Assembly: GCF_000374825.1 (NCBI RefSeq)
Contig: NZ_KB895376.1
Location: 251,460 to 315,459, forward strand
Reading direction: 5' to 3'
Source: Paenibacillus sanguinis 2301083 = DSM 16941
GTDB lineage: Bacteria > Bacillota > Bacilli > Paenibacillales > Paenibacillaceae
DNA length: 64,000 nt
Below the pieces are notes generated by a model that was not told where the DNA came from, made no database searches, and saw only the letters and a program-made list of their open reading frames with translations. This document shows, in pieces, positions 5,839-24,321 of the stretch (position 1 is the first letter of the stretch; each line of letters begins with the position of its first letter). The position numbers were made by a program, and so were the translations under genes.

Positions 5839-5842
5839 AAGT

Positions 5843-5971: not shown

Positions 5972-5987
5972 ATTTGGGTAGCTTTAA

Positions 5988-7193: not shown

Positions 7194-7208
7194 GAATCCA
7201 GCCTCCCT

Positions 7209-7230: not shown

Positions 7231-7253
7231 GTATATCCAAATAATTTCAAAAA

Positions 7254-7290
7254 CCAACCCTTTTCCCTTACAGCCTAGGAAAAGGGTTGG
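7254..7290 (-). terminator. Terminator after the alpha/beta spore-protein gene
   Basis: CCAACCCTTTTCC (7254-7266) is exactly inverted at 7278-7290. On the minus strand the stem is followed by TTTTTG. It lies about 50 bases after the spore-protein stop. Confidence 0.85.
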
Positions 7291-7341
7291 TAGACATTCC
7301 TTATTTGCCATGATATCGCATTACCTTACTCATGTCAAAGA

Positions 7342-7626
7342 TTAGGGCAAAAGAAATGATTGCTGGGCCTGGGCAATCAGGCGCTTGGAAATTTCACCAC
7401 CGATTGAGCCATTCTCTCGTGATGTAAGATAACCCATACTCCCGGAAGAGTACTGAGCCGTGTCTGGAGCATACATTCCCAGTTCATTCCCGAACTCCGC
7501 ATCACCTGTTCCCAGGGGGGTACTACCTCCAAGGTGTATACCCAACTCTGAGGCAATTTCCAGCTTCCACCGAGTCAACACAGCATGGCTTTCCGGAACA
7601 AGCTTGGTCCTACGCTTTGCTGTCAT
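7342..7626 (-). CDS. Alpha/beta-type small acid-soluble spore protein
   Basis: A 94-residue protein with the two family signatures: KLEIASELGI near residue 24, which contains the GPR protease cleavage context, and SRENGSIGGEISKRLI near residue 68. These proteins coat and protect spore DNA and are degraded at germination. It is longer than the usual 60-75 residues because of a Gly/Thr-rich insert between the two motifs (about residues 33-64), and it lacks the usual exact DNA-binding consensus in places, so it is a divergent member. GGAGGTG lies 8 bases before the ATG, and a sigma-G-like promoter lies upstream. Confidence 0.9.
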   Translation of the reverse strand: MTAKRRTKLVPESHAVLTRWKLEIASELGIHLGGSTPLGTGDAEFGNELGMYAPDTAQYSSGSMGYLTSRENGSIGGEISKRLIAQAQQSFLLP

Positions 7627-7661
7627 CCTTCACGCACCTCCACAATGTTTGTCCACATTTA

Positions 7662-7690
7662 TAGAGTGCGCAAGAGCGGAAAATCAATGC
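7662..7690 (-). promoter_or_regulatory. Candidate sigma-G promoter of spore-protein gene
   Basis: On the minus strand GCATT (7690-7686) and CACTCTA (7668-7662) are 17 bases apart. This is close to the forespore sigma-G pattern (GnATR, then CATnnTA) and is fitting for a small acid-soluble spore protein. Confidence 0.45.
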
Positions 7691-7729
7691 TAAAGAGTTA
7701 TTGTCTGTGCAGGGAAAAAAAGACTTCAT

Positions 7730-8263
7730 TTACTTGAGTGAATAAGCCCCTCGTACCAATACCGTCAGGCTATATTCGTTGCCAGGTTGAACCTGAAGTC
7801 CTCGCCCTTCTCTGGGAAAGGAGAGCAAATGGTTTTTGGATACTACCCATCCGTTAGGAATATCAATACCATCTGTCAGATCCGTAACCCCATCGACATC
7901 CTTGCTATAGACTACAGCAAGGCCTGCGCGAACAACAAATTCTGTTCCAGCATCTGCAATCAGTTTTTGCCCCGGCTTAACCGTCACCACTTCTACCGGA
8001 GCAGCCACCGCTGGAGGAGTTCTGTCATTATCCTTGGGCAATGGAGCAGGAGACGGAGACGGGGTAGGGGACGGAATATTCTCGCCTCTTAATGCCTGCT
8101 GAATCGCCTTATCTACATAGCTTTTTGTTACCACAGGATCCTCACTTGTGCCTGGTTGCGTTGCGGCACTAGCTCCTCCTGTAGTCAAATTCAACAATGC
8201 TCCGCTCCACAAGCTAATGCCTACTACGACAACCGGAAGTACAATATTCCATATCTTTTTCAT
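7730..8263 (-). CDS. Secreted protein of unknown function with Pro/Ser linker
   Basis: About 177 residues. The ATG at 8263 is chosen because AAGGAGG lies just upstream; a start at 8296 is less likely. An N-terminal signal segment (KKIWNIVLPVVVVGISLWSG) is followed by a short helix, a Pro/Ser spacer (PSPTPSPSPAPLP) and a compact C-terminal domain of about 90 residues rich in V and G. I do not recognise the domain. The gene begins 41 bases after the 842-residue secreted protein and is probably co-transcribed with it, so the two may be partners at the cell surface. Confidence 0.8.
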   Translation of the reverse strand: MKKIWNIVLPVVVVGISLWSGALLNLTTGGASAATQPGTSEDPVVTKSYVDKAIQQALRGENIPSPTPSPSPAPLPKDNDRTPPAVAAPVEVVTVKPGQKLIADAGTEFVVRAGLAVVYSKDVDGVTDLTDGIDIPNGWVVSKNHLLSFPREGRGLQVQPGNEYSLTVLVRGAYSLK

Positions 8264-8304
8264 TCCCGTCCTCCTTGACTCAAATCTCCCAGGCACAAAT
8301 CCTG

Positions 8305-10833
8305 TTATTCATCCGAATCTGTATCATCCGAATCCGCATCATCCGTGGAATCAGAATAGTAGAGTGATCTGCTACCCAGTTTAACCTTGTGATTTTCAAA
8401 CAGATCATAAATGGTCAAATCGAAATCATCATCTTCGGTCAAATCTTCCAACAGGGCACGGTCAAGACTGAAGCTCATTCGTCCGCCATCCATGACCTGA
8501 AGGTCAACCCCAGGAACAAATTCCTTGTTAAACACCCATCCGTTGGAATCTTTGATTTCAAACAAATATTTATGCTTGGTCTCACCGAGATCGTAGCCCG
8601 TCTCATGACTAAGATCATAGGTGAAGCTCACCAGGCCGGACAAATCAACGTCGACCTTTCTTACAGATAGCTCATAAGGCGATAGTGGCAAATCCCGCAA
8701 GGAGCGTTTCACTCTCGGTTTTACAATATCCAATTCCATGGCTACCCCATTGACGTAGCCCGCAGCCTCGCCTTTAACTGGTGTTAATTTGTTATCAGTA
8801 ATGCCTTCCCCGATAATTAGCTTGACATAACTTGTTGACACAGGTTCCCTTACTTTTGCCCAGAACGTAACAATATTCTTTTCTCCCGGTCCGATCTGAC
8901 TGTCCGTTTGGCTTACTGATGCCTTATATGTTCGACCATTCGAGGTTTGGAAGGCACCCACGAATTGGGAAAGATCCATGGAGTACTCTTCAAGATTTTC
9001 AACCATGACCTCGGCATAAAGCAAATCGCTTGATACGCTGCTGTAGATGCGGGAATTCAATACACTAATCTCTTGCTTGCGTCCTAGCGTATCGAATGTA
9101 AACGAAGCCCCCCATGGAATATCGGTTATTTCTGGAATATTGCCTGTATTACCAAATCGTACCCAGTCTGTGCTGTTCTCTCCTAACTTCTCACGGAGCA
9201 CAACTTGAAGCTGGTTGAAATTCAGATAACCCGGAGCCCTCGCAACTACATATATATCTGTAGACATGCCCGCCCCGATCAGCCGATCAGGCTGCGTGAG
9301 CACCAGCTTCGTTTCTTCCGTTAGTTCGGCAGAGTCCATCTGTAGAACCCCGCTTAAATCCGGTAATTGCAGTGTCTTTGCATTGGGGTTATCGATAGTA
9401 ATTTTGGCATTTATCATTTGGCCATCGCCCCATGGCAGCTTCTGCACGGAAGATAAAGTAACCCCCAAAGCTCCATTTTTCGTCTGAATTTGTTGCCTTG
9501 TTCCTATCATATTCTCTACCGGGTGTAGCTCAGGCAACGCAAAGATAGCTACCGGGTAAGTCAAGTTCTCCTTATTCTCCTCCGAGAGTGGCAGGTTCAT
9601 AAATAGACGTGGGTTAACCGTGCTGATATTCTTGGGTATGGTTACCGATAGAGTGATGTATTTATCTTCCTGCGGCTGGAGGGTCAACTTCTCAAGTGCC
9701 GGAAGATTCACAGGCAGACGATAGCCATCCGAAGTATGCAACTCAAACTGGTATTCAGGCAAGTCCACTACGGTTGCTCCCGTATTGCGCAAAGCAACAC
9801 GCACAGATAATAAATGTTCTCCATCGTTCTGAGTGATCGTTACCTGACCAACCTGTGCAGCTAATTTCCCGTTTTTCACCTGCAACAAGGTTTCAGAGCC
9901 AGGTTGTATGGCTTTCCATTGACTAGCTTCATTTGGCAACTGCATGGTAGCAATCGGCAGGCTCTGTTTGGCAGTCTCATCTTCAATGGCGATCTGTAAT
10001 CCCATACCTGATAGCTTGACTGCTTTCGGAATTTGAGCTGTCAAATGAAGTATTTTCTTGTCATTAGGCTGGATTTTGTACTCCACGCTTCCGGGATCTA
10101 ATGTTAGCGGGTAGCTCAATCCCGTAGCTGTACGAATAACAAACTTAAAGTCGGGAGCCTCAAACAATCTGTAGCCCTGATTGGATAAAGCTAGCTTCAG
10201 GCTGACATAATTGTAATCACCGGAGGCATAAGTTGTCACTCCCTCTACCTGAGCCTTTATACGAGCATCGGTAATGGGCAATGTTTTTGACTGGTTTGAA
10301 GGGGTGGACATCAAATAGCCTGCGGGTACCTTGAATTGCCCTTTGAGTGCCTCATAACCTGGCTGGCTAAAATCCCATTTAATGACTTGAAAAATTAAAT
10401 GCTGAGGTTGAATATGCTTGGCTACCCGAGTGGTGAACGTTAACGTGGTGGAAGACCCGGCCGCTACCTTCTTCTTCTCCTTGTCCTGGCTAATCAATGA
10501 TGTACTATATATAGTCCCGCTTACCGTTTTAACCTTAGACCAATAGTCAATCAAATCAATGGCCTTATTATCATTATTCTGAACCAATAATGTATAGGTC
10601 AGAACATTCTCATGGTCAAGAGTCAAAATGTTTACATCTGTCAGTCGCACTACACTTTTGGCGGTGATTTTTACTGGAGGCAAATTGGCTAATGTATGTA
10701 CCGTGCCTTGGCTTGCCGCTGTCTTCAGCTTGGCTGCCCCAGGGATACCCGCAGCCGTTGCGTGTGATGATAGGGGGGTCAATACCGATGCTGTCAAGAT
10801 AGCAGCCGCTGTAACCAATGAAATTTTACTCAA
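8305..10833 (-). CDS. Large secreted beta-rich protein with acidic tail, unknown function
   Basis: An 842-residue protein. TTG is the start, with AGGAGGAG about 5 bases before it. Residues 1-28 form a signal peptide ending near SHATAAG. The body contains about five repeated segments of roughly 120 residues, each with motifs like 'V.L.N.G...' and 'DLP.Y.F....TS.G..YP', suggesting tandem Ig-like or CARDB-like beta domains. The last 15 residues are almost all Asp, Ser and Thr (DSTDDADSDDTDSDE), perhaps a calcium-binding or flexible acidic tail. No family is recognised with confidence. It sits downstream of the TolC-like gene and upstream of a small secreted protein. Confidence 0.8.
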   Translation of the reverse strand: MSKISLVTAAAILTASVLTPLSSHATAAGIPGAAKLKTAASQGTVHTLANLPPVKITAKSVVRLTDVNILTLDHENVLTYTLLVQNNDNKAIDLIDYWSKVKTVSGTIYSTSLISQDKEKKKVAAGSSTTLTFTTRVAKHIQPQHLIFQVIKWDFSQPGYEALKGQFKVPAGYLMSTPSNQSKTLPITDARIKAQVEGVTTYASGDYNYVSLKLALSNQGYRLFEAPDFKFVIRTATGLSYPLTLDPGSVEYKIQPNDKKILHLTAQIPKAVKLSGMGLQIAIEDETAKQSLPIATMQLPNEASQWKAIQPGSETLLQVKNGKLAAQVGQVTITQNDGEHLLSVRVALRNTGATVVDLPEYQFELHTSDGYRLPVNLPALEKLTLQPQEDKYITLSVTIPKNISTVNPRLFMNLPLSEENKENLTYPVAIFALPELHPVENMIGTRQQIQTKNGALGVTLSSVQKLPWGDGQMINAKITIDNPNAKTLQLPDLSGVLQMDSAELTEETKLVLTQPDRLIGAGMSTDIYVVARAPGYLNFNQLQVVLREKLGENSTDWVRFGNTGNIPEITDIPWGASFTFDTLGRKQEISVLNSRIYSSVSSDLLYAEVMVENLEEYSMDLSQFVGAFQTSNGRTYKASVSQTDSQIGPGEKNIVTFWAKVREPVSTSYVKLIIGEGITDNKLTPVKGEAAGYVNGVAMELDIVKPRVKRSLRDLPLSPYELSVRKVDVDLSGLVSFTYDLSHETGYDLGETKHKYLFEIKDSNGWVFNKEFVPGVDLQVMDGGRMSFSLDRALLEDLTEDDDFDLTIYDLFENHKVKLGSRSLYYSDSTDDADSDDTDSDE

Positions 10834-10969: not shown

Positions 10970-12487
10970 TTATCTTGCTGCTACCAGCCATGGTTTGGAA
11001 TAAGCCAACTTTGCATTATCCAGGCCGGTAACAATGGTTATTATCTGTTGATTTAATGTTTCTAATTGCAGTTGTGCTTCAAACACTTCATATTCTGTTG
11101 CCATACCTAACTCATAACGCTTCTGCACAACATTCAAGGCCTCATTGGCACTACCAATGGATGCCTGAAGCTGGCTATATTGTGTCTCCAGTTTCTTGAT
11201 TTGATCATAGGTTTGTCGAACTGCATCCTCAAGCTGCTTCTTGGCATCTGCAACACTCAATTTTTTCAATTGGACATCGATCTTCACGTTATCATAAGAA
11301 TTGACGGTCTGCCCCACGAATGTAAAATAATCAAGATTAAGTTCCGCCTGCTGGACGCCACGCTCTGCCATCCAAACAGTAGGACTATCCTTTTGTATTC
11401 TCCCTACATGAGCATCGACGTCATCCTCAAATTCCTTAAATTCAGGGACATCTACAATCTCGTACTTCTGATCCGGCTTATAACCAATTAAAGCGTTCAA
11501 ATCCCGGTAGGACTCGCTCAAATTTTTATCTGCAACGTCCCTTGCTGCCTTGCTTTGTTCAACGGCATTTTGTGCTTGAGTAACCTCATATTCGCTAGCC
11601 ATCTGATTAGACAATTTGGTCTGAGCAATCCGCAGCTTCCATTCTGCGTCCTGTAAGCTCAGATCTGCCAAACGTTTGGCTTCAATAGCGTTAATAATGG
11701 AATTGAGTCCACTTCTTACCTGATAGGCTAATCCTTCCTTAGTAACTTCTAATTGCTTTTTGGAGACAAGATACTTGATTTGGGATTGACTGTAATTATT
11801 CCAGGCAGAGTTGGCATCCGGGTTGCCACCCTGGTTAGAAGCGGGAATATAGTCAATGTTATCTGCTGCATCCTCTAAATTGTTGTCCTGAATTTTGAGA
11901 GCCTTCTCTTGGGATTTAATATCATTGCTATGAGAAATGGCAAGTGCAACGGCATCTTCATAAGAAAGCGGCTCTGTATTTGTCTCCAATGGCAGCTCCT
12001 TGCTGGCATCAGGAGCTGGAGCCAGCGGATCAGTATGACCTGATTCTTCTGCCTTGGCAGCTGAATCAACCCGAACAGTTAATGTAGCGGGCTCCCAGCT
12101 TACCTGGGCTCCAAACGCTTCCCCTACAAAACGAAGCGGAACATAAACAGAACCCTGAATCAGCTTGGCAGGAACCTGCAATGTCATCTTCTGCCCATTC
12201 TTGTAAGCAACCGTCTGGTTGACTCTCAGTTCAATCGTATCGTTCCCTTTGGCTGCGGTAATTAACCCGGTGGCTTGATCATAGTCCACTCGAGCACCCA
12301 TGGATTGAAACAGAGCCCGCATAGGAACCAGAGTAACATTATTGCTTTGTACGGGCTTCTGCTCAAAGGTGCGGGGTACGCCATCAAGAACTACACTGAT
12401 ATCATTTGCAGCATTAGCGGAGGCCCCCCCGGCTATAGCAGAAGATAGAAGTAATGTGGAAAGTAAACCCGAGCTGAATCGTTTCAT
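10970..12487 (-). CDS. TolC-family protein with N-terminal stalk (copper amine oxidase-like) domain
   Basis: About 505 residues. The ATG at 12487 has AAGGAG 8 bases upstream and begins a signal peptide (KRFSSGLLSTLLLSSAIAGG). Residues about 30-140 form a stalk domain with the paired motifs VPMRALFQSMGARVDYD and VPLRFVGEAFGAQVSWE. From about 170 to the end is a TolC/outer-membrane-efflux fold with long alpha-helical hairpins (for example NQMASEYEVTQAQNAVEQSK and ELGMATEYEVFEAQLQLE), the internal duplication expected of TolC. In Gram-negative cells TolC is the outer-membrane channel of tripartite pumps. Here it is in a presumed single-membrane cell and lies next to RND permease and adaptor genes. 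Confidence 0.88.
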   Translation of the reverse strand: MKRFSSGLLSTLLLSSAIAGGASANAANDISVVLDGVPRTFEQKPVQSNNVTLVPMRALFQSMGARVDYDQATGLITAAKGNDTIELRVNQTVAYKNGQKMTLQVPAKLIQGSVYVPLRFVGEAFGAQVSWEPATLTVRVDSAAKAEESGHTDPLAPAPDASKELPLETNTEPLSYEDAVALAISHSNDIKSQEKALKIQDNNLEDAADNIDYIPASNQGGNPDANSAWNNYSQSQIKYLVSKKQLEVTKEGLAYQVRSGLNSIINAIEAKRLADLSLQDAEWKLRIAQTKLSNQMASEYEVTQAQNAVEQSKAARDVADKNLSESYRDLNALIGYKPDQKYEIVDVPEFKEFEDDVDAHVGRIQKDSPTVWMAERGVQQAELNLDYFTFVGQTVNSYDNVKIDVQLKKLSVADAKKQLEDAVRQTYDQIKKLETQYSQLQASIGSANEALNVVQKRYELGMATEYEVFEAQLQLETLNQQIITIVTGLDNAKLAYSKPWLVAAR

Positions 12488-12566
12488 CTCATATGCTCCT
12501 TCTCCTTTATTTTTAAAAAACCAGATAATAAGATGTATAAAAATCGATGCTTGATACAATACTATG

Positions 12567-12598
12567 AAAAAAAGGGTTCCAAGAGGAACCCCTTTTTC
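12567..12598 (-). terminator. Terminator after the 774-residue surface protein gene
   Basis: AAAGGGTTCC and GGAACCCCTTT form a near-perfect stem with a short loop, and the minus strand continues in a run of T. Readthrough into the TolC-like gene may be partial. Confidence 0.85.
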
Positions 12599-12616
12599 AA
12601 TACCAACCCACAAAGA

Positions 12617-14941
12617 TTAGTTGTTTACTTTAACTGTCTTTGTAGCTTCATCATAGCTGATGTTTGCTCCCAAAGCTTGAGCTACCCAGCTAACTGGCAG
12701 GACAGTACGATCACTCTTAGTGGATGCTTTAACATCCATGTGAATAACAGCACCGTTGATGATCAATTGGTTAGTATTCAGTTTGATTTGTACGACGCGG
12801 TCGCCTTTCAGCAAAGTAACCGTCGAAGTTGCTTTATCAAACTTGATGTTTTGTTTGGATACACCTACAGCTTCAGCTACATAACGAACTGGCAAGAATG
12901 TACGGCCATTTTCGATATAAGGAGCAATATCAGCAGTGTAAGTAGCACCATTTACAGTATAGCTAGTGCTTCCAATAGTGAATACCGATTCAGTAGTTTG
13001 ATCTGTTGGCGCAGGAGTGGATACCTTGGCTACAGATACCTTAGCTACAGCATCATTATCTTCCCAATCGGAGTATTTTTGAGTTTCAGATACAGCATCG
13101 CCTCTAACAGACAATTCGATTGGTCCTTCTGGAACAGTACGGTCTACAATAATGCTCACATCGGAAACAGAAATTGTACTAGCCGTATCGCTCTCAGCAT
13201 CAACATTGAATGATACTACTTTATCATTGCTGGATCTCTTCACGTTCGAGATATCCAGATCTCCACCCGAAACTTTCACTGTTGGTGTTTTTGCAAATTT
13301 AACTCCATCTGGCAGTTCAAGACGAACTTCCTTGTCATCAACCAAAGCGCCAGCGGCTCCTTCTTTAATGGTGAAATCACCAGCTTTTTGCTCTCTGGCA
13401 CCGATAACTACTTCTGGAGTTGTCTCAACAGATGCAGTAACAGGAGCAACCACTTTACCTACTACCAGTTCACCTTCGATACCTGCGGATCCACCAAAGG
13501 CAAGTTTCAAGTCACCTGTAAAGTCAGGGGCCAAAGCTACTTCCAGATCTTCAAAATCCAGGGTAGCCGCATCGGTATCATTTGTACGTTCTGCTTTAAA
13601 CTTGGCTGTACGGTTATTAGTACCTGTATATCCTGCAAATTTCAAAGTTACGCCTTCGTCTTTAATAGTTCCTGTAAGGTCAGCAGGATCGTCTTTCTTC
13701 TCATCATGCTCATATTCTGGCTGCCATCTTGCACCTTCAGGCAAGGTGATTTCCAGGTAACGTCCATTCGCACCAGTTACGATACTTTCACCAATAGTTT
13801 CTGTCAAATGGAATTCAGCAATTTCTTGCTCATCTCGGCCAGCAATCAGAGTAGGCGCATCTTCAGCCGTCAGTGTTGAACCATATTCACCGTAAGTACC
13901 GATTTTGCCTTCTGTAATGTTGGTAGTCGTGTCGCCACTTACACGGGCGATAATTTCGCCTTCTTTTACTTTGCTTGAATCCTCAACAATAAAGTTGAAA
14001 GGAATTTCAATTTTGGTTGGAGTTTTTGTTTGACCAAGCTTCTTGCGATCATCTGCATCCTTTTTAACTTTAATGATCAATTCTTCTTTTTTGTCTGGAT
14101 CTGGCTTAACGTCAAGCCATTCAGCTTTAAAGTTACCAATGATAGTTTCTATCTTTTTATTCTCTCTCAAGTCATCCCATTCATATCCCTTAGGAAGCTT
14201 GATTTTTATTTCAGTGCTTTCGTTGAGTGCACCGGCAAATGGCTCTTCCAAGATAAGATTTGGAGTAAATACTTCATTGGAGGTATCCAAGCTGCCAAAA
14301 GACAAATTCATACTGTTGTTCTCGTCGTTCACTTTAGCAACGATCGCCTCACCAGCAGGGAATGGGCTGGAAGAAGGAGCGCTAAATCTTACTTTAGCTT
14401 CACCATTTTCACCTTCTTCTACATACAGAGCACCAAGTGTCAATGTGAAGACAGCAGGATCCTTTGTAAGAGTTACAGGTTTGCCGATATATTCCACAAT
14501 GATCCGGTCAGTTTTGGACTGTTCAGTAATTTTGAAGTCCCCGTTGTCAATAACTTCGACATCACCTTCATTACTCAGTTCCAGTTTGTTCTTTGCATCA
14601 GGGAATTTTTCCAAATCAAATGCAACAAAATCAGCTCCTGCAATGCTGTAAGTTGTAGATGTAACTGATTCTTTTTCAGCCAAGTCAAAAGGCAACTCAA
14701 TTTCAAGTGTATCGCCTGCTTCAAGGCTAGCAAATTTAGGGATTTCAAAAACTACGTTCCCCACACGTTCATTCGCATCTTTAGCAGAAATTGTTGGTGT
14801 AGTAAGGGCCTTAATAGTTCCGGTACCAGCTGCTTCAACAACTGTTGGAACACTCAGTGCCGTAATTGGTGCAGCTACCCCAGCAATCAAAGTTGCTGTA
14901 GCAAGCACGTTAATAATCTTTTTATTAAACTTTGTTGTCAT
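12617..14941 (-). CDS. Secreted surface protein with C-terminal stalk domain
   Basis: About 774 residues. The ATG at 14941 is chosen because AAGGAGGAG lies 11 bases upstream; an upstream ATG at 15013 has a weaker context. The signal peptide ends after VVEAAG. The middle contains at least three related beta domains, each opening with a phrase like 'VVIGAREQKAGDF' or 'LIAGRDEQEIAEF' and followed by 'LP.G..W' or 'LPDGVKF'. The last 110 residues are a copper-amine-oxidase-like stalk domain (FLPVRYVAEAVG and VLPVSWVAQALG). The strong promoter, long leader and own terminator suggest high expression, as for an S-layer-like protein. No enzyme motif is visible. Confidence 0.85.
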   Translation of the reverse strand: MTTKFNKKIINVLATATLIAGVAAPITALSVPTVVEAAGTGTIKALTTPTISAKDANERVGNVVFEIPKFASLEAGDTLEIELPFDLAEKESVTSTTYSIAGADFVAFDLEKFPDAKNKLELSNEGDVEVIDNGDFKITEQSKTDRIIVEYIGKPVTLTKDPAVFTLTLGALYVEEGENGEAKVRFSAPSSSPFPAGEAIVAKVNDENNSMNLSFGSLDTSNEVFTPNLILEEPFAGALNESTEIKIKLPKGYEWDDLRENKKIETIIGNFKAEWLDVKPDPDKKEELIIKVKKDADDRKKLGQTKTPTKIEIPFNFIVEDSSKVKEGEIIARVSGDTTTNITEGKIGTYGEYGSTLTAEDAPTLIAGRDEQEIAEFHLTETIGESIVTGANGRYLEITLPEGARWQPEYEHDEKKDDPADLTGTIKDEGVTLKFAGYTGTNNRTAKFKAERTNDTDAATLDFEDLEVALAPDFTGDLKLAFGGSAGIEGELVVGKVVAPVTASVETTPEVVIGAREQKAGDFTIKEGAAGALVDDKEVRLELPDGVKFAKTPTVKVSGGDLDISNVKRSSNDKVVSFNVDAESDTASTISVSDVSIIVDRTVPEGPIELSVRGDAVSETQKYSDWEDNDAVAKVSVAKVSTPAPTDQTTESVFTIGSTSYTVNGATYTADIAPYIENGRTFLPVRYVAEAVGVSKQNIKFDKATSTVTLLKGDRVVQIKLNTNQLIINGAVIHMDVKASTKSDRTVLPVSWVAQALGANISYDEATKTVKVNN

Positions 14942-15063
14942 AACCTTTTTTTCTCCTCCTTGAATATCATTAACTTTAGTATTATTTTTTTTGTCTCGAG
15001 TTATGTTACTCATCAGTCATTACACCTCCTTTCCGAGTAAAGTCCAACCCTTTATAATGATAT

Positions 15064-15216
15064 CTGTGACAATATCACAGAAGCTTGAAACCAGGATAAT
15101 GATAGAAAATAGAAATCTCACAACTACTCCAGTATTATACAATGCTATTGTGAGAAGGTAAAGATTTTTTTATCGCATTTTGTCACTCGAAGCGATTAGT
15201 AATGACAATATTGTCA
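15064..15216. promoter_or_regulatory. Two TGACAAT-type palindromes flanking the promoter
   Basis: TGACAATATTGTCA at 15203-15216 is a perfect 14-base palindrome about 40 bases upstream of the -35 box. CTGTGA-CAATA-TCACAG at 15064-15080 lies downstream of the start point and contains a related GTGACAATAT. They could be paired operators or, for the downstream one, an RNA hairpin. Confidence 0.45.
15134..15162 (-). promoter_or_regulatory. Sigma-A promoter of the surface protein gene
   Basis: On the minus strand TTTACC (15162-15157) and a perfect TATAAT (15139-15134) are separated by 17 bases. Transcription from here gives a leader of nearly 190 bases before the ATG at 14941. Confidence 0.7.
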
Positions 15217-15383
15217 CTAGCAACTTCATGCTCACAAGGTTAGACGTTACAGGTTTTAAAAAGTTGCGATATTTGAAAAAATTTTTTTCCCTGTAGTCAA
15301 CATTATATCTTCAAATGAAACCCGCCGTCACCAAGTAATTATTCCCTATATTTTTTCAAATCAGGGGTATTTTAGGGGTTTAA

Positions 15384-15426
15384 GGACGAAGCGCTCTTTC
15401 ATCTTAGATGAAAGGACGCTTCGTTA
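15384..15426 (-). terminator. Hairpin after RND adaptor gene
   Basis: ACGAAGCG and CGCTTCGT flank an inner stem CTTTCATCT/AGATGAAAG, giving a 17-pair hairpin 5 bases beyond the adaptor stop. It lacks a clear T-run, so it may be a processing or stabilising structure rather than a terminator. Confidence 0.6.
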
Positions 15427-15430
15427 CATA

Positions 15431-16774
15431 TTATTGGTTAACAACAGATATCTTCGAGCCATCGCTTAGCATGCTGATTCCCTTCACAATGATACTTTGG
15501 CCTTCAGCCAGACCTTTCGTTACCTCTACTTTGGTGGAGCTCTCCGACCCAGTTTCGATAGCAACTCTCTTGGCTTTATCTCCATCTACCGTGTATACAT
15601 ACTTCACGCCAGCACTTTCGGTTACGGCCTCCTGAGGAATCAGCAGCCCTTGCTCGTTCCCGGATTGAATATACACATTAGCCATCATACCTGCTCTAAG
15701 GGTACTGTCCGGGTTATCTACAGAAATTTCGACAGGATACGCCTTCAGGCTCTGATCCATGACAGACCCCAAGGCTGTAATCTTGGCATCGATCTTCTTG
15801 TTTAATGAAGGAACTTCAACTGAGACGGAAGATCCCACCTTGACATCCATCATTTCAGACTCGGCCAGATTCACCTTTACCAGAATCGGACTGGTATTGG
15901 CAATAGTTACAACAGGAGCTTGCGGTCCAACCAACAGGCCGGTTGTTCCACTTACTGCCGACACGGTTCCTGAAATAGGGGCCACAACTTTGGTCTTGGA
16001 TAACTGACTCTGAGCCGTCTCCAAGGCTACACGCGCCTGATTAATGCTGGCTTTGGCTACTTGCACTCCAGAGGAACGCCGCGCCAATTCCAACGATTTT
16101 TTGGCATTTTCATAACTTGTCTGCGCACTCTTCAAAGCCGTTTGCGCATCTTTATACGATAGATTGGCATTTTCTAAAGCACTTTGCGCCTGCTTCGCCG
16201 CTGTTTGGGCCTGCTCAAGCTGGGATTGGGAGACAACCCCGGCCGCAAACAATTCCTGTGTTCGTCTCAAATTGCTTTGGGCATCTCGATTAGCATTTTC
16301 TGCATCAGCGATCCCCACCTGCACCTGTTGAATAGCATTTTGCCTTTGTATAAGAGCACTGTGGGCCTGATCAACTCCAGACTCTGCTTGCTGAATGGAT
16401 TGCTGAGAACCATCCTCAGCTTGCTTAAGGCTGGCAACGGCCATATTATATGACTCTTTCGCCTGCTTGATGCTATCCAAAATGTTTTGCTGATCTAATG
16501 TGAACAAGACATCTCCCTGATTAACAGCTTGCCCGATCTTCAAATCGATGCTCTTGATAACACCGCTAACCTCAGGGGACACTTGCACCGTCTTGTTGGG
16601 AGCCAATGTCCCTACAATACCGGCTTCCGCTTCAATACTCCCCTTCTCGACCACACCCAATTCGACAGAAACCGCTTGTTCTTCGGCTACAGTCGCTGGA
16701 TTTTGCCCTCCCGAGCAACCCGCTATCGCAATGGATAACGTGAGCATTAATAACATAGTCATACTTTTCTTCAT
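15431..16774 (-). CDS. RND efflux adaptor, lipoprotein
   Basis: About 447 residues. The ATG at 16774 has GAGGTG upstream. The N-terminus is a lipoprotein signal with the lipobox IAGC (residues about 17-20), so the mature protein is lipid-anchored on the outer face of the membrane. A lipoyl-like half, a long coiled coil (about 95-255, rich in Ala, Gln and Ser), the second lipoyl half (VVAPISGTVSAVSGTTG) and a beta-barrel and membrane-proximal domain follow. This is the AcrA/MdtA layout. It is 35 bases downstream of the RND permease gene and is its natural partner. Confidence 0.92.
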   Translation of the reverse strand: MKKSMTMLLMLTLSIAIAGCSGGQNPATVAEEQAVSVELGVVEKGSIEAEAGIVGTLAPNKTVQVSPEVSGVIKSIDLKIGQAVNQGDVLFTLDQQNILDSIKQAKESYNMAVASLKQAEDGSQQSIQQAESGVDQAHSALIQRQNAIQQVQVGIADAENANRDAQSNLRRTQELFAAGVVSQSQLEQAQTAAKQAQSALENANLSYKDAQTALKSAQTSYENAKKSLELARRSSGVQVAKASINQARVALETAQSQLSKTKVVAPISGTVSAVSGTTGLLVGPQAPVVTIANTSPILVKVNLAESEMMDVKVGSSVSVEVPSLNKKIDAKITALGSVMDQSLKAYPVEISVDNPDSTLRAGMMANVYIQSGNEQGLLIPQEAVTESAGVKYVYTVDGDKAKRVAIETGSESSTKVEVTKGLAEGQSIIVKGISMLSDGSKISVVNQ

Positions 16775-16809
16775 GGTTGTTCCCCACCTCACTATTCTAG
16801 TCATATTCT

Positions 16810-19800
16810 TTAAGCTTGAATACTCTCTTGCTCCAGCTTCATCTGAGCATTGGTTCCTTTTTGTTGTTGCTTCTTCATCTTCCGGTCTTTTCGTTTTGCG
16901 ATTATATTATCGAACACAATATAAACGACAGGAACCAGGAATAACGTAATTAATGCCGAGAAGCTAAGACCAAACACAACGACAACAGCCATAGGCGCCA
17001 TCGTGGCATTTGAAACGTCATGTGAGAAAGCCATTGGGAACAACGAAAGTACTGTTGCTAGCGTAGTCATCAGAATCGGACGTATCCGTTCAGTAGCCGC
17101 GAGCAATACCGCCTGTTCTCCTCCCATCCCTTCTTGGCGAAGTTGAATGACAAAGTCAATCATCACAATGGCATTGTTAACAACAAGGCCGACGAGCATG
17201 ATATAGCCGATCAAGGCAATAATACTCAAGCTTGAGCCCGTGACAACCAGCCCAACAATTACACCTATGAGACTCGTTGGAATAGAGAACATAATGACGA
17301 ATGGGGTAAACAAAGATTCAAATTGTCCGGCCATAACCATATAGATCAGGGCTACTGATAATAAGATAGCAATCCCCAAACTCATGAACGATTCCATCAT
17401 TTGTTCTTGCTCGCCGCCGCCAGTATCCACTGAATAGCCATCCGGCAGATGCAACTTATCGAGCATCGCTGCTATTTTACTATTAACAGAGACCAAGTCG
17501 TTTCCTTCAATATCGGCCGTAATTGATACCTGACGAGCTTGATTCTTACGAGTAATTGTATCAGGTACTTCCTTAAGCTCTAACTTGGCCACCGACATCA
17601 GAGGAACATCAAGACCTTGGGCTGTTGCAATCCGCAGTGACTCAAGATAAGAATAATCCTGCTGATATTGTTTTGGAAACGCAACTTCTACATCAATTTG
17701 ATCATCACCAGTCCGATAGCTTGTAGCTACCGTCCCCTCGAATGAAGTACGAACTGCTGACAAGACTTGTGGAGTTGATAAACCGTACCTTGCAGCCATT
17801 TTAGTATCTACCGATAACGTGTATTCTTCACGCACCGCATCCAGCGAGCTGGCTGCGTTAACTGTCCCCTCCACCTTCTTCACTTCTGAGACAATTTGAT
17901 TCGAAAGTTCTCTCAAAACTTCCATATCGTCGCCCGTAAGGTTAATCTGCACTGCAGAACCTGTAGAGAGGGAGGCAGCACCGGAGACTGTAATTTCCGC
18001 ATCCGGGATATTATCAACCTTTTGTCGTACTTCAGAGGCAACTTCACCGGTCGAACGTTTGCGTTCATCCACCAATGTTGCCGTCAGTGTGGCTTCATTT
18101 GTTGCTTGCCCACTGCCGTACCCCCCACCTGAACCGATCGTTGCGGTGACGTTCTCCAATTCAGGGATGTCCAATAGGGTTTGTTCAATCTTGCTTACAG
18201 CTTGCTCCGTGTCCTCCAGCTTCGCCCCTTTTGGCATCTCGATAGCTACTGTCATTTGTCCTTCATCCATTTCAGGAATGAATTCAAATTTCACGAGAGG
18301 CAACAAGGCTGCCGAGCCTATAAACAGAAGCACTGTACCTATCAAGACCATCTTTTTATGACCCAGACTCCACTTCAAGGATTTTCCGTAGGCTGTCTTG
18401 ACTTTTTCAAAGAATATATTGAACCATACAATCGGATTCTTCCCCTTATATGTACCAGAGGTATATACCGACTCATCAGGTAGCTTGGGCAAGAAGCGAG
18501 AGCTTAGCATCGGTACAATCATCAAGGACACTACCAAAGCAGCAATGTGGGAGAATATGACCGTTAATGCCAACGGCTTGAATATCTCGCCCGCCATGCC
18601 TTCAACGAAGACGATTGGGAGGAAAACCACGATCTGAGCAAGCGCGGATGCCATGACGGCATTACCTACCTGCTTGGATCCCTCTAACGCGCCCTGCATC
18701 ATGCTCTTGCCTTCGTGTCGGTGTCTGAAGATATTTTCGATAATAACGACCGAGAAATCGACGAAAGAACCTAATCCCAGCAACAAGCCACCAAGCGAAA
18801 TAATATTGATGGTCTGACCGGAAAAGTACATCATCATGAAGGTAGCAACAAATGAAATCGGGATAACAATTGCTGCAATAATCGTTGATCTTGTACTATT
18901 CAGGAATAATAGAAGAATAACCGCAGCAATAATAAGACCTATAACTGCGTGCTCAAGCAGCAAACTTACTGAATCGCTAACCGGTTCGGAAGCATCTGTC
19001 ACCATTTCCAGCTTGGTTCCTTCCGGCAAGTCATCAGCAATAGACTTCAAGCTGTCTTTGACGGCTCTTGCAATTTGCAGTGTATTCCCACCTGAAGCCT
19101 TTGTAACAGATATATTAATACTAGGAGTTCCATTAAAAGTGGAAATCGTGGTTACATCAGATAAAGAATCTTCTACAGTAGCTATATCTTTTAACCGAAT
19201 GGTCGACGTTCCTATATTAATTGGAGTTTCAGCAATTTCGGATACTGCTTGATACTCCCCTTGGACACGAATTTGAATTTCACTATTTCCCTTAGTGACT
19301 GAACCACCCGACCCCGAAATATTATTAGCAGCCAGCGCTTGACTAATCTGATCCAAGGATATGCCATACTGGCCAAAGCTTGCAGGATCTATAGTAACTC
19401 GAATCAACCGTTCCTGCCCGCCTGTAATGCTAACAGATGCCACACCAGGAATTCTTTCCAGTTGCGGTTGAATAATATCCTCGGCAATAGGCTGCAACTT
19501 GTTGACATCTTGCTCTCCAGTGAAAGCAAGGTTAATGATTGGCATCGAATTTATGTCCATCTTCAGAACCTGAGGTGAATTAGCCGAATCCGGCAGCACT
19601 CCCCTAACTCTGTCCAAGCTGTCCCGCATATCTAGTGTGGCCTGATCCAGATCAACGCCATAATTAAACATCACCATGACCAGAGACGAACCGGCTCCCG
19701 ATTGAGATTGGATGGTATCCACATTTTGAATCGAAGCCAAGCCACTTTCAATCGGCTTGGTCACCAGCTCTTCAACTTCCGAAGGTGTAGCGCCAGGCAC

Positions 19801-19944
19801 GCTTGTGGCAACCATCGCTACTGGGAACTCCATTTCTGGCATCTGCTCGACAGGAAGCCGCGTTGCAAAAATAACGCCACCGACGATTAATGTAACAATC
19901 AACATGAATACCGTCACGGGACGTTTAATTGAAAAATGAGACAT
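16810..19944 (-). CDS. RND-family efflux permease (AcrB/HAE type)
   Basis: About 1044 residues, the full length of the family: a helix near the N-terminus (TVFMLIVTLIVGGVIFATRL), a large porter domain, helices 2-6, a second large domain and helices 8-12. The ATG at 19944 has GGAGGGG upstream. It should export substrates using the proton gradient. In helix 4 the usual paired Asp motif (VDD) reads GLGSFVDFSVVIIEN, so only the first Asp is kept and the second is Phe. It precedes the lipoprotein adaptor gene and follows the SLH protein gene. B. subtilis SwrC is a single-membrane relative. The substrate is unknown. Confidence 0.95.
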   Translation of the reverse strand: MSHFSIKRPVTVFMLIVTLIVGGVIFATRLPVEQMPEMEFPVAMVATSVPGATPSEVEELVTKPIESGLASIQNVDTIQSQSGAGSSLVMVMFNYGVDLDQATLDMRDSLDRVRGVLPDSANSPQVLKMDINSMPIINLAFTGEQDVNKLQPIAEDIIQPQLERIPGVASVSITGGQERLIRVTIDPASFGQYGISLDQISQALAANNISGSGGSVTKGNSEIQIRVQGEYQAVSEIAETPINIGTSTIRLKDIATVEDSLSDVTTISTFNGTPSINISVTKASGGNTLQIARAVKDSLKSIADDLPEGTKLEMVTDASEPVSDSVSLLLEHAVIGLIIAAVILLLFLNSTRSTIIAAIVIPISFVATFMMMYFSGQTINIISLGGLLLGLGSFVDFSVVIIENIFRHRHEGKSMMQGALEGSKQVGNAVMASALAQIVVFLPIVFVEGMAGEIFKPLALTVIFSHIAALVVSLMIVPMLSSRFLPKLPDESVYTSGTYKGKNPIVWFNIFFEKVKTAYGKSLKWSLGHKKMVLIGTVLLFIGSAALLPLVKFEFIPEMDEGQMTVAIEMPKGAKLEDTEQAVSKIEQTLLDIPELENVTATIGSGGGYGSGQATNEATLTATLVDERKRSTGEVASEVRQKVDNIPDAEITVSGAASLSTGSAVQINLTGDDMEVLRELSNQIVSEVKKVEGTVNAASSLDAVREEYTLSVDTKMAARYGLSTPQVLSAVRTSFEGTVATSYRTGDDQIDVEVAFPKQYQQDYSYLESLRIATAQGLDVPLMSVAKLELKEVPDTITRKNQARQVSITADIEGNDLVSVNSKIAAMLDKLHLPDGYSVDTGGGEQEQMMESFMSLGIAILLSVALIYMVMAGQFESLFTPFVIMFSIPTSLIGVIVGLVVTGSSLSIIALIGYIMLVGLVVNNAIVMIDFVIQLRQEGMGGEQAVLLAATERIRPILMTTLATVLSLFPMAFSHDVSNATMAPMAVVVVFGLSFSALITLFLVPVVYIVFDNIIAKRKDRKMKKQQQKGTNAQMKLEQESIQA

Positions 19945-20149
19945 CTCTTCACTCCCCTCCAATATTTCTATTTTGTATTTTTATAGACTTAGTTTACTAC
20001 GTTCCATCTCATACAGGGTTTCAACAATTTATTGCAGACTTTATCCAGTTCATTTACCTTGCTCCCCCCAATTTATAAGTATATTAATTATTATGCATCC
20101 CTCGAATAGCCATAGTCAAATTTCCCCGTATTGACGTGCATTCTAGAAT

Positions 20150-20210
20150 AAAGGGCAGATGAATTTCCGCCCTCCTAATTAAACCGTACGTGAGGTTTCC
20201 GTTTTACGAT
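20150..20210 (-). mobile_element. Remnant of a group II intron 3' end (domain V-VI like)
   Basis: On the minus strand GGAAACC-TCACGTACGGTTT resembles the 3' half of a domain V hairpin. Next comes TAATTAGGA and a 7-pair stem GGGCGGA/TCTGCCC (20172-20166 with 20159-20153) in the position of domain VI. The 5' strand of domain V is degenerate, and no reverse transcriptase frame remains. Confidence 0.45.
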
Positions 20211-20336
20211 AGTGCATTCCAAGAAAAACAAATCTTTCTTTTCCGTTCTTAGCCTCACGATACAGTTTCCCGGCTCAATCTGAAATCGATACTTGAACAG
20301 GCATTTATAAAGTCGGGGGCGGACTTGGTATATCAA

Positions 20337-20377
20337 CAAAAAAAGCACCTCTCCAATCATTCACAGAGAGGTGCTTT
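20337..20377 (-). terminator. Terminator after SLH protein gene
   Basis: AAAGCACCTCTC (20342-20353) is exactly inverted at 20366-20377, and the minus strand continues TTTTTTTG. It lies 18 bases after the stop codon. Confidence 0.9.
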
Positions 20378-20394
20378 GCACAAATTACATCTTT

Positions 20395-23300
20395 TTACAT
20401 AGCAGGAAGCTTCTTAGTTGAAGCCATTACTCTTCCAACGATAACAGCGGCATCACCGCGTAGCGTGAAAGAGGTTGGATTAAAATTATAGCCTTTTTTA
20501 GGATCGCTAGGGTCGATAGGCGAGCCACTAATAAAGCCTTTTTGAGCAATAGCAAGCACTGAAGGAGCAGCATAATAATCAATGTCTGCGTAATCCTTGA
20601 AATATTTGGCCAATCCTTTATTCACTGTCTCCCGCTTGGTTTGCAGCTTCAAATTAAGAGCCTTAGCCATGACTACCGCTGCATCTTGACGGGTAATGTT
20701 GCTGTCTGGATCAAACACCCGTGGCTGAATACCTTTGATAATACCTGCCCGCGCCGCAGTTTCCACATAACGGAAATCCCATAGATTATTAGTATAACTT
20801 CTGGAAACATCATCAAACGACAGTCTTCCCAAGTAATTCAACGGAAGCTGCTGAGCCTTAACAATCATCTGAGTAAACTCAGCACGTTTAATATTGATAT
20901 CCGGTTTAAACCCTACGGATGGATCTTCCGGATTCATTATCCCTTTAGCATACAGGGTTTCCAAATAGTCACGGGCATAAGGATGACTAATAATGTCCGT
21001 GTACGTTTCTCCCAGCTTGGCGACAACATAATAACCAAATTGATCAAACGGAACTTCAATCGTATTTTTCTTTGCATTGACAACTCCGCCAATATTCTCC
21101 CATGTTCCTGATTCTGGATTAAAATGCAGAACTGTGATCAGTTTCCCCGCATCATCAGTAACACTCGAATCATATGTCAGAGTCAGTTCCCCTCTCTTGG
21201 AAGGAATCAGTTCATCCTCAGGCGAACGGTTATAGAAGCTCTTCACCCGAGAAGTGCTAGATAACTGATAAGGTCCTACCCCTTTGGTCACAGGGTCATA
21301 GACATCAGTCTTCAAATCGTCCGCGATACCTGCATCAATCCAGAACACAGGACTGACTTTGCCAAAGCGATCCGGGAATTCGCCAACAAAATATTGCTCA
21401 CCAGTTTTGAACAAGTTATTACGATCATCCAAGTCATTGAATCTATCAACAGCACCATCTTCTCCGTTGGCTATTCCGAACAGGAAGTCATGCTTGGTAT
21501 ACACCTGATCCTTATATCTCTCCGGTGCATAATAATCATGGCGCAGCAAGCTTGTATTCGTCGGGAATGTCAATTGAAGACTACCTTCAAATACCTTATG
21601 AGACTTCTTCATTGTCTCCATCACTTGAGCACCTGGAATGTTGGCCGGAACATAAGTTACCCTTATTTCCTCTTTCAACTTCTGATCGCCAATCGCGACC
21701 TCGATTGAAATCTTGGTTTCCTTATTTGGCTTCAAGCCTTTAACAATGTAGCTAAAAACGGAATGGTAATCAATATCTCCATCATAATCAGCATCAAAAT
21801 CTATTCTTTCAGCCGTCTCGCCATCAATAGTCACACTATCCGCATTAGGCGAGTCTACAATAACTTCCACAAAATTTTGATTCAATTTCATATTGTTCGT
21901 AACCGGACGTACAATATTCAGAGAAGATGTGGAATATCTCACTTCCATACGGTAAGTAGCCCCACTACTCCCCTCACCGTTGTACAAAGTGAAATTATAA
22001 ATCAAAGCCGTGCCATCCTGCGGGACAGACTGATTGAACAAGACAAAGCTGAAGTCTTCCTCTTTTGGATGATAGTATACAGCCAGATCATCAATCGTAC
22101 TTCCTGAATTAAATACAGTTCTCGCATTATCATCGCCATAGAAAGTATCATCCAAAGACCATTCTGTCGTTTTCCCGTCAGAAGCTTCAATTTTCAGCTT
22201 ATAACCACTCTTGCCGCTAACCTTGTCCAATACATCTTGAACATTATTCATTCTGCTGCCTAAGTCAATGAAATCAAACGTACCAAAAATATTCATTTTC
22301 GGTTTGGTTGTTGTGTACGAGCCATTTCCTCCAACAAAATTCGGATCCGCTTTAGTGATCTTCACATCGTTGTAGCTATCTCGTGGGCTCTCCCCATCAT
22401 AAGTGAACGGAACAATCCCAATCGAGCCTTCCACTGGAATCAATGCGATACTGGAAGTCGTTATATTGACCTTAATTTCTCTTACATAAGAATCCGAACC
22501 GGATTGATAAACAAACCGAATGGTATTAGCCCCAACAACTAGAGCATCCGCCGCAGCATTCTCACCTCCCGCTGTAACCCGGAAAGAAGACACCTCTCCA
22601 TCAGCTTCTAATGCCACTAGTTCATTATTAATATACAAAGATACAGTCCGATCAGCACCCGTATATTTAATATCTGACTTATTGCTGATATTGAATAACT
22701 GCCCTTTAAAATGATCGACAGCATCTAATTTTTGCTCTCTAGTTTCGCCAGGCTCATTTGTATCGATTTTAATTTGCTGCCCGTCATAAACACTGTTGAA
22801 CGTTGCATAAGGCCCGTACAACATTTTAACATTCAGAGCTCGCGAATCAAATACGGTGCCAGAACCGTCTACCAATTCAAGCGGAATTGTACTGGTAGCG
22901 CTTGGAAGCGAATCTAGTGAGACGACAATCCGTTTCACTGAGGTCTGCACTCCGTTAATCATTCTCGTTGTATACTGATAGCTTGCATTTGAAGGAACAA
23001 TCTCTTTCAATTGAATGGCACTATCCGACGTTCTAATGGTTAGCTTATTGGCATCTGTCGCTGTTTCCTTAGAAACAACGATAACCTCTATCCCGGCAGG
23101 CACAGAATGGATATCAGTCGTTCTATCCTCCATCGAACTTCCGGTCAGGTTATAAGCTTCATTGCTGCCAGTACTACTGTTATAGCCTTGCAAATAGTTC
23201 ACTTCATGAATATATGATTTTCCCTTGTCTCGCAAACGAAAGAAAAAGTCCTCCGACCCGCTAAGACCGTCCACTTTCAAATTCAGATTGATTTTTGTAT

Positions 23301-24321
23301 CAAAAGCGGCGCCAGAATTAAATGGGATTACAAAAGGCACTTTTACATAACTGTTCGTTTTCTCTGAAAAATCACTGCTCGGAACTACAATGCTAGTTGG
23401 AGTAAGCGCAGGACTGCTGGATATCTGGAGTGTCACGTTATCCGGCGCTGTTTCGGCAAATGGGACCAGCACGGTTCCGTGCATCTCGATATTATTCGTA
23501 TCCACCACACTGAAATCAGGCGATGTGGTGAGATCAGCCGAGATCGTATTATCATCCGTATCCTTCAGATAAGTATCGTAAAAGGTCAATTCCCCATTAT
23601 AAAATGTAACCTGCCGCGTCGTCGTGACGGACTGATCGTTATTGGAAGCCGTAATGGTAAGTATATTATTTCCTTTGTTAACTCTAACAGTACCTGCTGT
23701 AAATCTGTAATCATTTGAACTGGATACATTAAAAGTCCATGACTTCCCGTTAGTATCAATCGTCACCTTGTTAGCATTTTTAGCAAAACCGCTGATCACA
23801 ATTTGAGTATCGGAATCACCTTCTTGAACTGCAGAAGCAAATAGTACCGCCGGCTTCCCTTCAGATAACGGCACAGTATCACCGTTTAATCTAGCGGACA
23901 GATCAGACAAGGTTGGCCCATTGCGATATTCAATATAGATCGTGTCTGATACGGAAGAGGAGCCCTTTTTGCCTTGGATAACAATTTTATTCAGACCAGA
24001 AAACAGCTTAACATTCAGAATTTTCAATTCTGATCCGCTAGGGTAGATATTTCCCGTCTGTCCAACGTTCGAACTCACCTCATCACCGTTTTTGGACAAC
24101 TGATATACGCTGTATGAAATGGTGTCCTTATTCACATTATTAAAAGAGCCCGTTAGATCGACTCGATCGGTATTAACAACACGCGCATCATTGATTGCAT
24201 ACCTTTCATTCGGAAAAATAAAGTACGTTCCTGAAGCTGCATCTGCTGTTCCAGGCCAAGCTGTCGGCACCACTGTAATCAATAGTGCAACAATCATTAA
24301 CATGGAAAGTATTTTTTTCAA
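20395..24321 (-). CDS. S-layer homology (SLH) domain surface protein
   Basis: A 1308-residue protein starting at TTG, with AGAGGAGG 8 bases upstream. The signal peptide ends near TADAASG. The long body (about 30-1120) consists of beta-rich repeats with Ig-like features and no enzyme motif. Residues about 1125-1308 hold three SLH domains (YTDIISHPYARDYLETLYAK; FDDVSRSYTNNLWDFRYVE; FKDYADIDYYAAPSVLAIAQ). SLH domains bind pyruvylated secondary cell-wall polymer, and the genes for making that polymer (tagO, tagA, csaB) lie just upstream. It is a structural or anchoring surface protein. The motifs are clear, but its exact role is not. Confidence 0.93.
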   Translation of the reverse strand: MKKILSMLMIVALLITVVPTAWPGTADAASGTYFIFPNERYAINDARVVNTDRVDLTGSFNNVNKDTISYSVYQLSKNGDEVSSNVGQTGNIYPSGSELKILNVKLFSGLNKIVIQGKKGSSSVSDTIYIEYRNGPTLSDLSARLNGDTVPLSEGKPAVLFASAVQEGDSDTQIVISGFAKNANKVTIDTNGKSWTFNVSSSNDYRFTAGTVRVNKGNNILTITASNNDQSVTTTRQVTFYNGELTFYDTYLKDTDDNTISADLTTSPDFSVVDTNNIEMHGTVLVPFAETAPDNVTLQISSSPALTPTSIVVPSSDFSEKTNSYVKVPFVIPFNSGAAFDTKINLNLKVDGLSGSEDFFFRLRDKGKSYIHEVNYLQGYNSSTGSNEAYNLTGSSMEDRTTDIHSVPAGIEVIVVSKETATDANKLTIRTSDSAIQLKEIVPSNASYQYTTRMINGVQTSVKRIVVSLDSLPSATSTIPLELVDGSGTVFDSRALNVKMLYGPYATFNSVYDGQQIKIDTNEPGETREQKLDAVDHFKGQLFNISNKSDIKYTGADRTVSLYINNELVALEADGEVSSFRVTAGGENAAADALVVGANTIRFVYQSGSDSYVREIKVNITTSSIALIPVEGSIGIVPFTYDGESPRDSYNDVKITKADPNFVGGNGSYTTTKPKMNIFGTFDFIDLGSRMNNVQDVLDKVSGKSGYKLKIEASDGKTTEWSLDDTFYGDDNARTVFNSGSTIDDLAVYYHPKEEDFSFVLFNQSVPQDGTALIYNFTLYNGEGSSGATYRMEVRYSTSSLNIVRPVTNNMKLNQNFVEVIVDSPNADSVTIDGETAERIDFDADYDGDIDYHSVFSYIVKGLKPNKETKISIEVAIGDQKLKEEIRVTYVPANIPGAQVMETMKKSHKVFEGSLQLTFPTNTSLLRHDYYAPERYKDQVYTKHDFLFGIANGEDGAVDRFNDLDDRNNLFKTGEQYFVGEFPDRFGKVSPVFWIDAGIADDLKTDVYDPVTKGVGPYQLSSTSRVKSFYNRSPEDELIPSKRGELTLTYDSSVTDDAGKLITVLHFNPESGTWENIGGVVNAKKNTIEVPFDQFGYYVVAKLGETYTDIISHPYARDYLETLYAKGIMNPEDPSVGFKPDINIKRAEFTQMIVKAQQLPLNYLGRLSFDDVSRSYTNNLWDFRYVETAARAGIIKGIQPRVFDPDSNITRQDAAVVMAKALNLKLQTKRETVNKGLAKYFKDYADIDYYAAPSVLAIAQKGFISGSPIDPSDPKKGYNFNPTSFTLRGDAAVIVGRVMASTKKLPAM

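Follow-up and report, generated by a model that had tools for sequence, protein, structure and literature searches.

In the genome of Paenibacillus sanguinis 2301083 = DSM 16941 we analysed a stretch of 64,000 nucleotides (contig NZ_KB895376.1, positions 251,460–315,459; hereafter the window), in which the genes for an SLH surface protein, an RND permease, a lipoprotein adaptor, a predicted secreted surface protein with a stalk domain (SURF), a TolC-like protein, a predicted secreted protein with a DUF4352 domain, a small predicted secreted protein and MetK all lie on the minus strand (Table 1). From the sequence comparisons described here we suggest, with a probability of roughly 55%, that this block codes for a tripartite exporter adapted to an envelope with a single membrane, and that its duct would do without a membrane barrel and be held at the wall with SURF. 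An exporter is favoured by the joint presence of the permease, adaptor and TolC-like genes in 21 of 21 genomes and their joint absence in six of six relatives, by the coil that the TolC-like protein keeps and the barrel strands that it appears to lack, and by the pairing of SURF with such proteins across the Bacillota. An earlier note on this DNA had already read the SLH, AcrB-type permease, lipoprotein adaptor, stalk-domain and TolC-family genes in one orientation, as they indeed are. The two unknown secreted proteins that it added do exist, but both lie outside the range 10970-24321 to which it had assigned the block, and one of them has a recognizable domain, DUF4352.

The TolC-like protein belongs to the outer membrane factor (TolC/OprM) family, with two OEP repeats (PF02321) above the family cut-off, and in a profile search against solved structures chains of TolC and OprM are matched, the displayed stretches falling in their coil parts. 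We measured coil and loops as the number of residues between fixed helix positions in a MAFFT alignment of 82 proteins. The barrel-less set comprises 64 of these (22 from the profile alignment, namely 21 from Paenibacillaceae and one from Desulforamulus, 27 from the rest of the phylum and 15 from a diderm group) and the canonical set 18 (15 from the diderm group and three from Escherichia coli). By this sequence measure the coil of the window protein spans 104 residues, as compared to 103–104 in the three E. coli proteins, whereas its two loops have 53 and 49 residues, short of the 77–139 and 79–129 residues of the canonical proteins that include the pair of barrel strands. The same holds for the whole barrel-less set: the loops (41–62 and 42–50 residues) do not overlap with the canonical ones, and the coil medians are 104–105 in all groups except E. 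coli (103), with ranges of 104–116 in the barrel-less and 103–132 in the canonical proteins. For the diderm-group proteins the gap between the loop lengths is partly there by construction, because they had been separated beforehand by the length of the open reading frame (ORF; under or over 440 aa), though none of these 30 proteins is intermediate. A recount at 45 loci, partly of the same proteins, gave loops of 51–60 and 40–52 residues; the TolC-like proteins of genomes lacking Omp85 were found with the barrel-less profile, by which a canonical TolC could be missed there. A Pfam OEP search of the window's own genome returned only two TolC-like proteins and an HlyD-type adaptor. Judged from lengths and alignment, the TolC-like protein is thus one that keeps the helical coil and lacks the segments of the barrel strands. 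Its earlier assignment to the TolC family stands as far as the OEP repeats and the coil are concerned; as a TolC it is incomplete. It carries a stalk domain in addition, a fusion that is also seen at two other loci, and on a quick tree the fusion state takes three changes. The second TolC-like gene of the genome (L066, G000:C10:156000-174000, positions 4284-8958) is also barrel-less and stands beside genes for an HlyD-type adaptor, an ABC ATPase and a MacB permease (Pfam MacB_PCD).

We take the host as single-membrane, as far as tested, because Omp85 has no match in the 4.8 Mb genome, no search having been aimed at other outer-membrane markers; the control for this search was positive in 7 of 14 named genomes. 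The presumption of the earlier note is borne out to this extent, and the seating in an outer membrane that characterizes the TolC/OprM family is not found for the TolC-like protein (again by Omp85, other markers not having been searched).

Evidence for a link between these genes comes from the family Paenibacillaceae. As the whole TolC-like protein was uninformative as a query (197 of 197 genomes match, nearly all of those listed through the stalk domain), its OEP part was used to search 394 genomes from 19 genera. Matches are found in 25 genomes of three genera. Twenty-one of them, including that of the window, form clade A and have the stalk-fused form together with a second, shorter copy, and the other four have only one shorter form. 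Named carriers of the stalk-fused form include P. macerans, P. massiliensis, P. terrae, P. ottowii and P. brasilensis, some of which we take to be members of the P. polymyxa group. The gene order SLH, RND, adaptor, SURF, TolC-like protein, small protein and MetK is kept in all 21 clade A genomes, in one of them across two contigs, with the SLH homologue mostly cut by the end of the fetched stretch. The earlier note had held that its proposal would fall if the TolC-like gene were not linked to the RND genes in related genomes, and this outcome did not occur. It had also asked for the order of seven genes. Six of them, together with MetK, are conserved in 21 of 21 genomes, but the DUF4352 gene is found in only three, that of the window included.

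SURF occurs in 27 of 388 genomes of the family, that is in the same 21 genomes of clade A and in six of another genus. In these six relatives SLH, SURF, the small protein and MetK are intact in every case, and the RND, adaptor and TolC-like genes are all missing from the block; a search with the OEP part found no TolC-like protein anywhere in the six genomes. As SURF separates the RND and adaptor genes from the TolC-like gene, the difference affects two sites at once. The adaptor orthologue has at least 54% identity within clade A and was not found in 117 other sampled genomes, where the best-scoring match has 31% identity and the highest identity among the matches listed is 36%, over part of the protein. 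An adaptor-like gene adjoins the TolC-like gene in 23 of the 24 fetched loci of clade B. In genus g7, 17 of the 18 clade A genomes have a second RND–adaptor pair (about 24–28% identity) beyond MetK, encoded on the opposite strand; in the remaining genome the fetched stretch is cut.

Beyond the family, homologues of SURF with 31–34% identity over about 590–800 residues stand beside TolC-like genes in other families of Bacillota. For a count we selected 45 barrel-less loci by the best TolC-like scores, ignoring SURF; they come from 37 genomes, all Omp85-negative, and are not independent, and three have less than 2.5 kb of upstream sequence. We searched them with a profile made solely from SURF proteins of Paenibacillus. 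A SURF gene of the same orientation lies upstream at a distance of up to 6 kb in 32 of the 45 loci, and within 500 bases in 27. Eight of the 11 loci without SURF upstream in a wider count have MacB-type genes. An adaptor and a transporter are encoded on the same strand in 19 of the 45 loci; the transporter is of RND type in 10, and SURF is present as well in 11 (recounted by script). Only two loci have neither pump pair nor SURF. SURF itself has no SLH or other known S-layer anchor, the stalk domain PF07833 being the sole domain above cut-off, and against solved structures nothing beyond this domain was matched at a threshold of E 0.03. As it is without an SLH domain, a role of SURF as an S-layer protein is unsupported. 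The duct may end at the surface layer, as the earlier note had it; the gene most often found beside it codes for SURF and not for an SLH protein.

The permease has the full ACR_tran architecture, with scores under the curated cut-offs of those NCBIfam models that were listed, and aligns to AcrB of E. coli K-12 with 25% identity. Of five AcrB positions which we take to be the proton-relay residues, the equivalents of D407, R971 and T978 are kept and those of D408 and K940 are changed. The adaptor has a hairpin of 170 residues between the lipoyl halves, as compared to 80 in AcrA, and at its tip an RLS motif (RTQELFAAGVVS at residues 181–192), which is also present in 20 of 20 other clade A adaptors. 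In Gram-negative systems the RLS motif binds TolC (PMC3391258).

We envisage the following route. The RND permease would take its substrate from the membrane or from the outer face of the membrane, and the lipoprotein adaptor with its long hairpin would carry the path outward and dock tip to tip on the helical tube of the TolC-like protein. The outer end of this tube would be held at the wall by the stalk domain of the TolC-like protein and by SURF, such that the substrate exits within or beyond the peptidoglycan. Of these steps we infer the docking, the closed path and the seating by SURF or the stalk domain. As for the substrate, lipopeptides might be guessed at by analogy with YerP of B. 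subtilis, which a passage in a review ties to surfactin (PMC8277102).

Several observations weigh against this proposal. SURF is retained in six relatives in which no TolC-like protein was found, and therefore has a role of its own. The case for co-expression is weakened by the leader elements that SURF has to itself and by a terminator-like site between SURF and the TolC-like gene. In 26 of the 45 barrel-less loci there is no same-strand adaptor–transporter pair within the fetched stretch, thus the link to a pump is not universal. Furthermore, adaptors of relatives without a TolC-like protein carry RLS (six) or RLT (four) in 10 of 12 cases, and we therefore rejected the motif as a marker of adaptors that meet TolC. 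By the same measure the hairpin has 194 residues in a MacA-type adaptor of the diderm group and 80 and 124 residues in two RND-type adaptors of genomes lacking Omp85. Hairpin length alone is therefore no sign of a function at the wall, and an adaptation of the long hairpin to the wall is unsupported.

The best surviving alternative, although we consider it rather unlikely, is that the TolC-like protein has lost its duct function and is a TolC-derived coiled-coil protein of the wall or S-layer that works with SURF as spacer, clamp or adhesin, the RND permease acting alone. The 26 loci just mentioned, the adjacency to SURF as the commonest link (32 of 45) and the repeated fusion of stalk domains to TolC-like proteins would fit such a protein. 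Against it speak the absence of the TolC-like gene jointly with the RND and adaptor genes, the eight loci in which barrel-less genes stand beside MacB-type ABC genes without SURF, and a coil length held at the E. coli value. Improbable in our view is a mere co-inheritance, in which the pump and TolC-like genes would be a set inherited together in a surface-protein locus, with a shared history and no physical complex. The separate leader elements and the patchy distribution over three of 19 genera speak for it, but two separate sites are present or absent together in an otherwise intact locus, and RND, adaptor and TolC-like genes also occur together in other families of the phylum, at 10 of the 45 loci (at one of them, L271, not side by side). 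Finally, we rejected a cryptic outer membrane with an ordinary tripartite pump, to which we give next to no credence in spite of the OEP-family protein, because Omp85 was not found (other markers not having been searched) and the barrel-strand segments are missing.

Returning to the exporter with a barrel-less duct, the distribution of such proteins over the phylum bears on its possible origin. Profile matches (E up to 0.001) are found in 238 of 398 genomes of the phylum, a number that at its weak end may comprise adaptors and further coiled-coil proteins. Among 80 genomes tested, Omp85 is found in none of the 57 with strong barrel-less matches (51 from the search of the phylum and six Paenibacillaceae) as compared to 12 of the 23 with weaker ones. 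In the diderm group (loci L224–L238) a barrel-less and a canonical TolC gene are present on the same strand in all 15 stretches and are direct neighbours in nine. Ten of these loci come from nine Omp85-positive genomes, and the other five belong to the same coded families and were outside the Omp85 test. Five of the stretches were listed gene by gene; the permeases checked are MacB by Pfam in three of three cases (L224, L225 and L231), and among ORFs of at least 200 aa from L224–L238 neither SURF nor a stalk domain was matched. In the tree, 14 of the 15 barrel-less proteins of the diderm group weakly group with 13 of the 15 canonical ones (support 81/83, long branches) and the other 49 barrel-less proteins form one clade (99/99); a single barrel-less clade is not rejected (p = 0.116). 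A single origin of all barrel-less proteins is thus neither shown nor rejected by these sequences. As diderm Bacillota already have a barrel-less TolC in addition to the barrel-bearing one, such a tube may have been retained or put to use again by cells in which the outer membrane disappeared. Tentatively, and with clearly less confidence than in the exporter itself, one could regard SURF and the barrel-less TolC as an exit port specific to the single-membrane envelope. It would be an old, widely distributed substitute for the channel of the outer membrane, and RND or MacAB pumps would plug into it.

To our knowledge, transport past the wall in thick-walled single-membrane cells is poorly understood. 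A barrel-less duct with a conserved wall-surface protein would offer a concrete set of genes that can be deleted in P. macerans and in species of the P. polymyxa group. In addition, barrel-less ducts in genomes lacking Omp85 and pairs of barrel-less and canonical proteins in genomes with Omp85, all in one phylum, give a comparative handle on the transition from diderm to monoderm cells.

As to its expression, the block looks like several transcription units rather than one operon, since a terminator-like site follows the SLH gene and SURF has a conserved leader of its own (terminator-like sites in our scan number 16, with 14.4 expected by chance). The TolC-like, adaptor and permease genes form one cluster on one strand, with SURF and a second terminator-like site in between. 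An alignment of eight SURF leaders shows strong conservation. A motif GCAAC–15 to 18 bases–CGTC, presumably a promoter of an extracytoplasmic function (ECF) sigma factor, and a stem–loop CTGTGA–TCACAG are present in 27 of 27 SURF leaders, and neither is found in the 21 leaders each of the RND, adaptor, TolC-like, small protein and MetK genes. The longer pattern GCAAC-16-CGTCTA occurs once in the window with 0.02 expected. A GGAGG near the start of SURF is found in 20 of 21 clade A genomes as compared to none of the six pump-less relatives. These elements would fit an abundant, separately controlled surface protein and the earlier description of its gene as strongly transcribed. For the TolC-like ORF a TTG start at 12613 is probably spurious, because the ORF would there cross the stem–loop and T-run behind SURF and the ATG at 12487 aligns with most relatives. 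The SLH protein, with two SLH stretches by Pfam and three at a relaxed threshold, is a putative S-layer protein.

Table 1. Features of the block, of the remaining window and of the second RND–adaptor pair in related genomes
Feature	Position	Strand	Evidence and remarks
SLH surface protein, 1308 aa	20395-24321	−	Pfam SLH, E 4.7e-20
Terminator-like hairpin 3′ of SLH gene	20342-20377	−	14 pairs, then T-run; consensus match only
RND permease, AcrB-type	16810-19962	−	ACR_tran 1-1021 of 1021, E 1.8e-243
Lipoprotein RND adaptor	15431-16804	−	TIGR01730, 214 bits (cut-off 94.9); IAGC lipobox in sequence
ECF-sigma-like promoter of SURF gene, GCAAC-16-CGTCTA	15241-15267	−	Pattern match
SURF, predicted secreted surface protein, C-terminal stalk domain	12617-15013	−	Pfam PF07833 (Cu_amine_oxidN1)
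Stem–loop and T-run, terminator-like, directly 3′ of SURF stop	12574-12591	−	Stem–loop listed for + strand; minus-strand T-run by reading the sequence
TolC-like protein, 505 residues	10970-12487	−	PF07833 stalk domain at residues 34-139; two PF02321 OEP repeats; signal-peptide-like start
Predicted secreted protein with DUF4352	8305-10833	−	PF11611, E 1.4e-09; optional member of the block
Small predicted secreted protein	7730-8296	−	No family match in Pfam and other profile scans
MetK	5988-7193	−	Part of the conserved gene order
ABC-2 permease, HlyD-type adaptor with RLS motif, TetR regulator	2641-5796	−	Separate exporter-like set
NAGPA (phosphodiester glycosidase) protein	1-2181	−	Homologue also beside MetK in pump-less relatives, there with stalk domain
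ZMP/ZTP riboswitch	55458-55540	−	The window has no other Rfam match that reaches the gathering score
Second RND–adaptor pair, example	L094 1206-5713
Second RND–adaptor pair, example	L095 1266-5788		Similar in others

The earlier note had taken the system to be undescribed, and this cannot be upheld. A TolC-dependent pump of monoderm cells that ends at the S-layer was proposed in 2022 in PLoS Biology (PMC8809574) and a TolC/HlyD-like route in 2014 (PMC4137172). According to the available parts of the former paper, monoderm Firmicutes have TolC-like proteins, many of them encoded in operons with an adaptor and a transporter, the examples are all from species with S-layer genes and without BAM, a seat of the TolC-like protein in the S-layer is proposed, and the model of a Clostridioides difficile protein has an omission in the barrel domain. 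The window and its genome agree with this proposal in an OEP-family protein, an S-layer-type gene and the absence of an Omp85 match. The main text does not mention Paenibacillus, and the parts available contain no surface-protein partner, stalk fusion, joint presence and absence or family-wide measure of barrel loss. Likewise, the accessible passages of PMC8277102 and PMC5491611 have nothing on ducts in single-membrane cells. Thus, the idea of such a pump is known, and not seen in the literature searched (without bioRxiv, and for several sources in part) are the SURF partner, the joint absence at two sites, the family-wide loss of the barrel, the repeated fusion of the stalk domain and the pairs of barrel-less and canonical TolC.

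For Desulfotomaculum reducens, a Gram-positive species, mass spectrometry of the surfaceome detected the OEP-family protein Dred_3141, as far as the sections available report it; the PF07833 protein Dred_3143 was likewise at the surface, and a type I-like TolC/HlyD route was suggested (PMC4137172). SURF, a barrel-less TolC-like protein and a third, stalk-type-looking protein stand in a row in Desulforamulus putei (L136, 8168-13241), with no RND-sized gene in the fetched stretch. We take Dred_3141 to be an orthologue of the TolC-like protein and presume that both species are congeners. Operons of the MacAB–TolC type in Bacillota with and without Omp85 resemble the block in that a barrel-less TolC-like gene also stands beside MacB-type genes; they differ from it in being energised by an ABC protein instead of an RND permease and, in the diderm group, by the lack of a SURF or stalk match mentioned above. 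With AcrAB–TolC from E. coli the block shares the RND permease, the lipoprotein adaptor with an RLS motif and a two-repeat OEP protein of equal coil length. In contrast to AcrAB–TolC, it appears to have no outer-membrane barrel, its adaptor hairpin has 170 instead of 80 residues, and the gene of SURF separates that of the putative duct from those of the pump.

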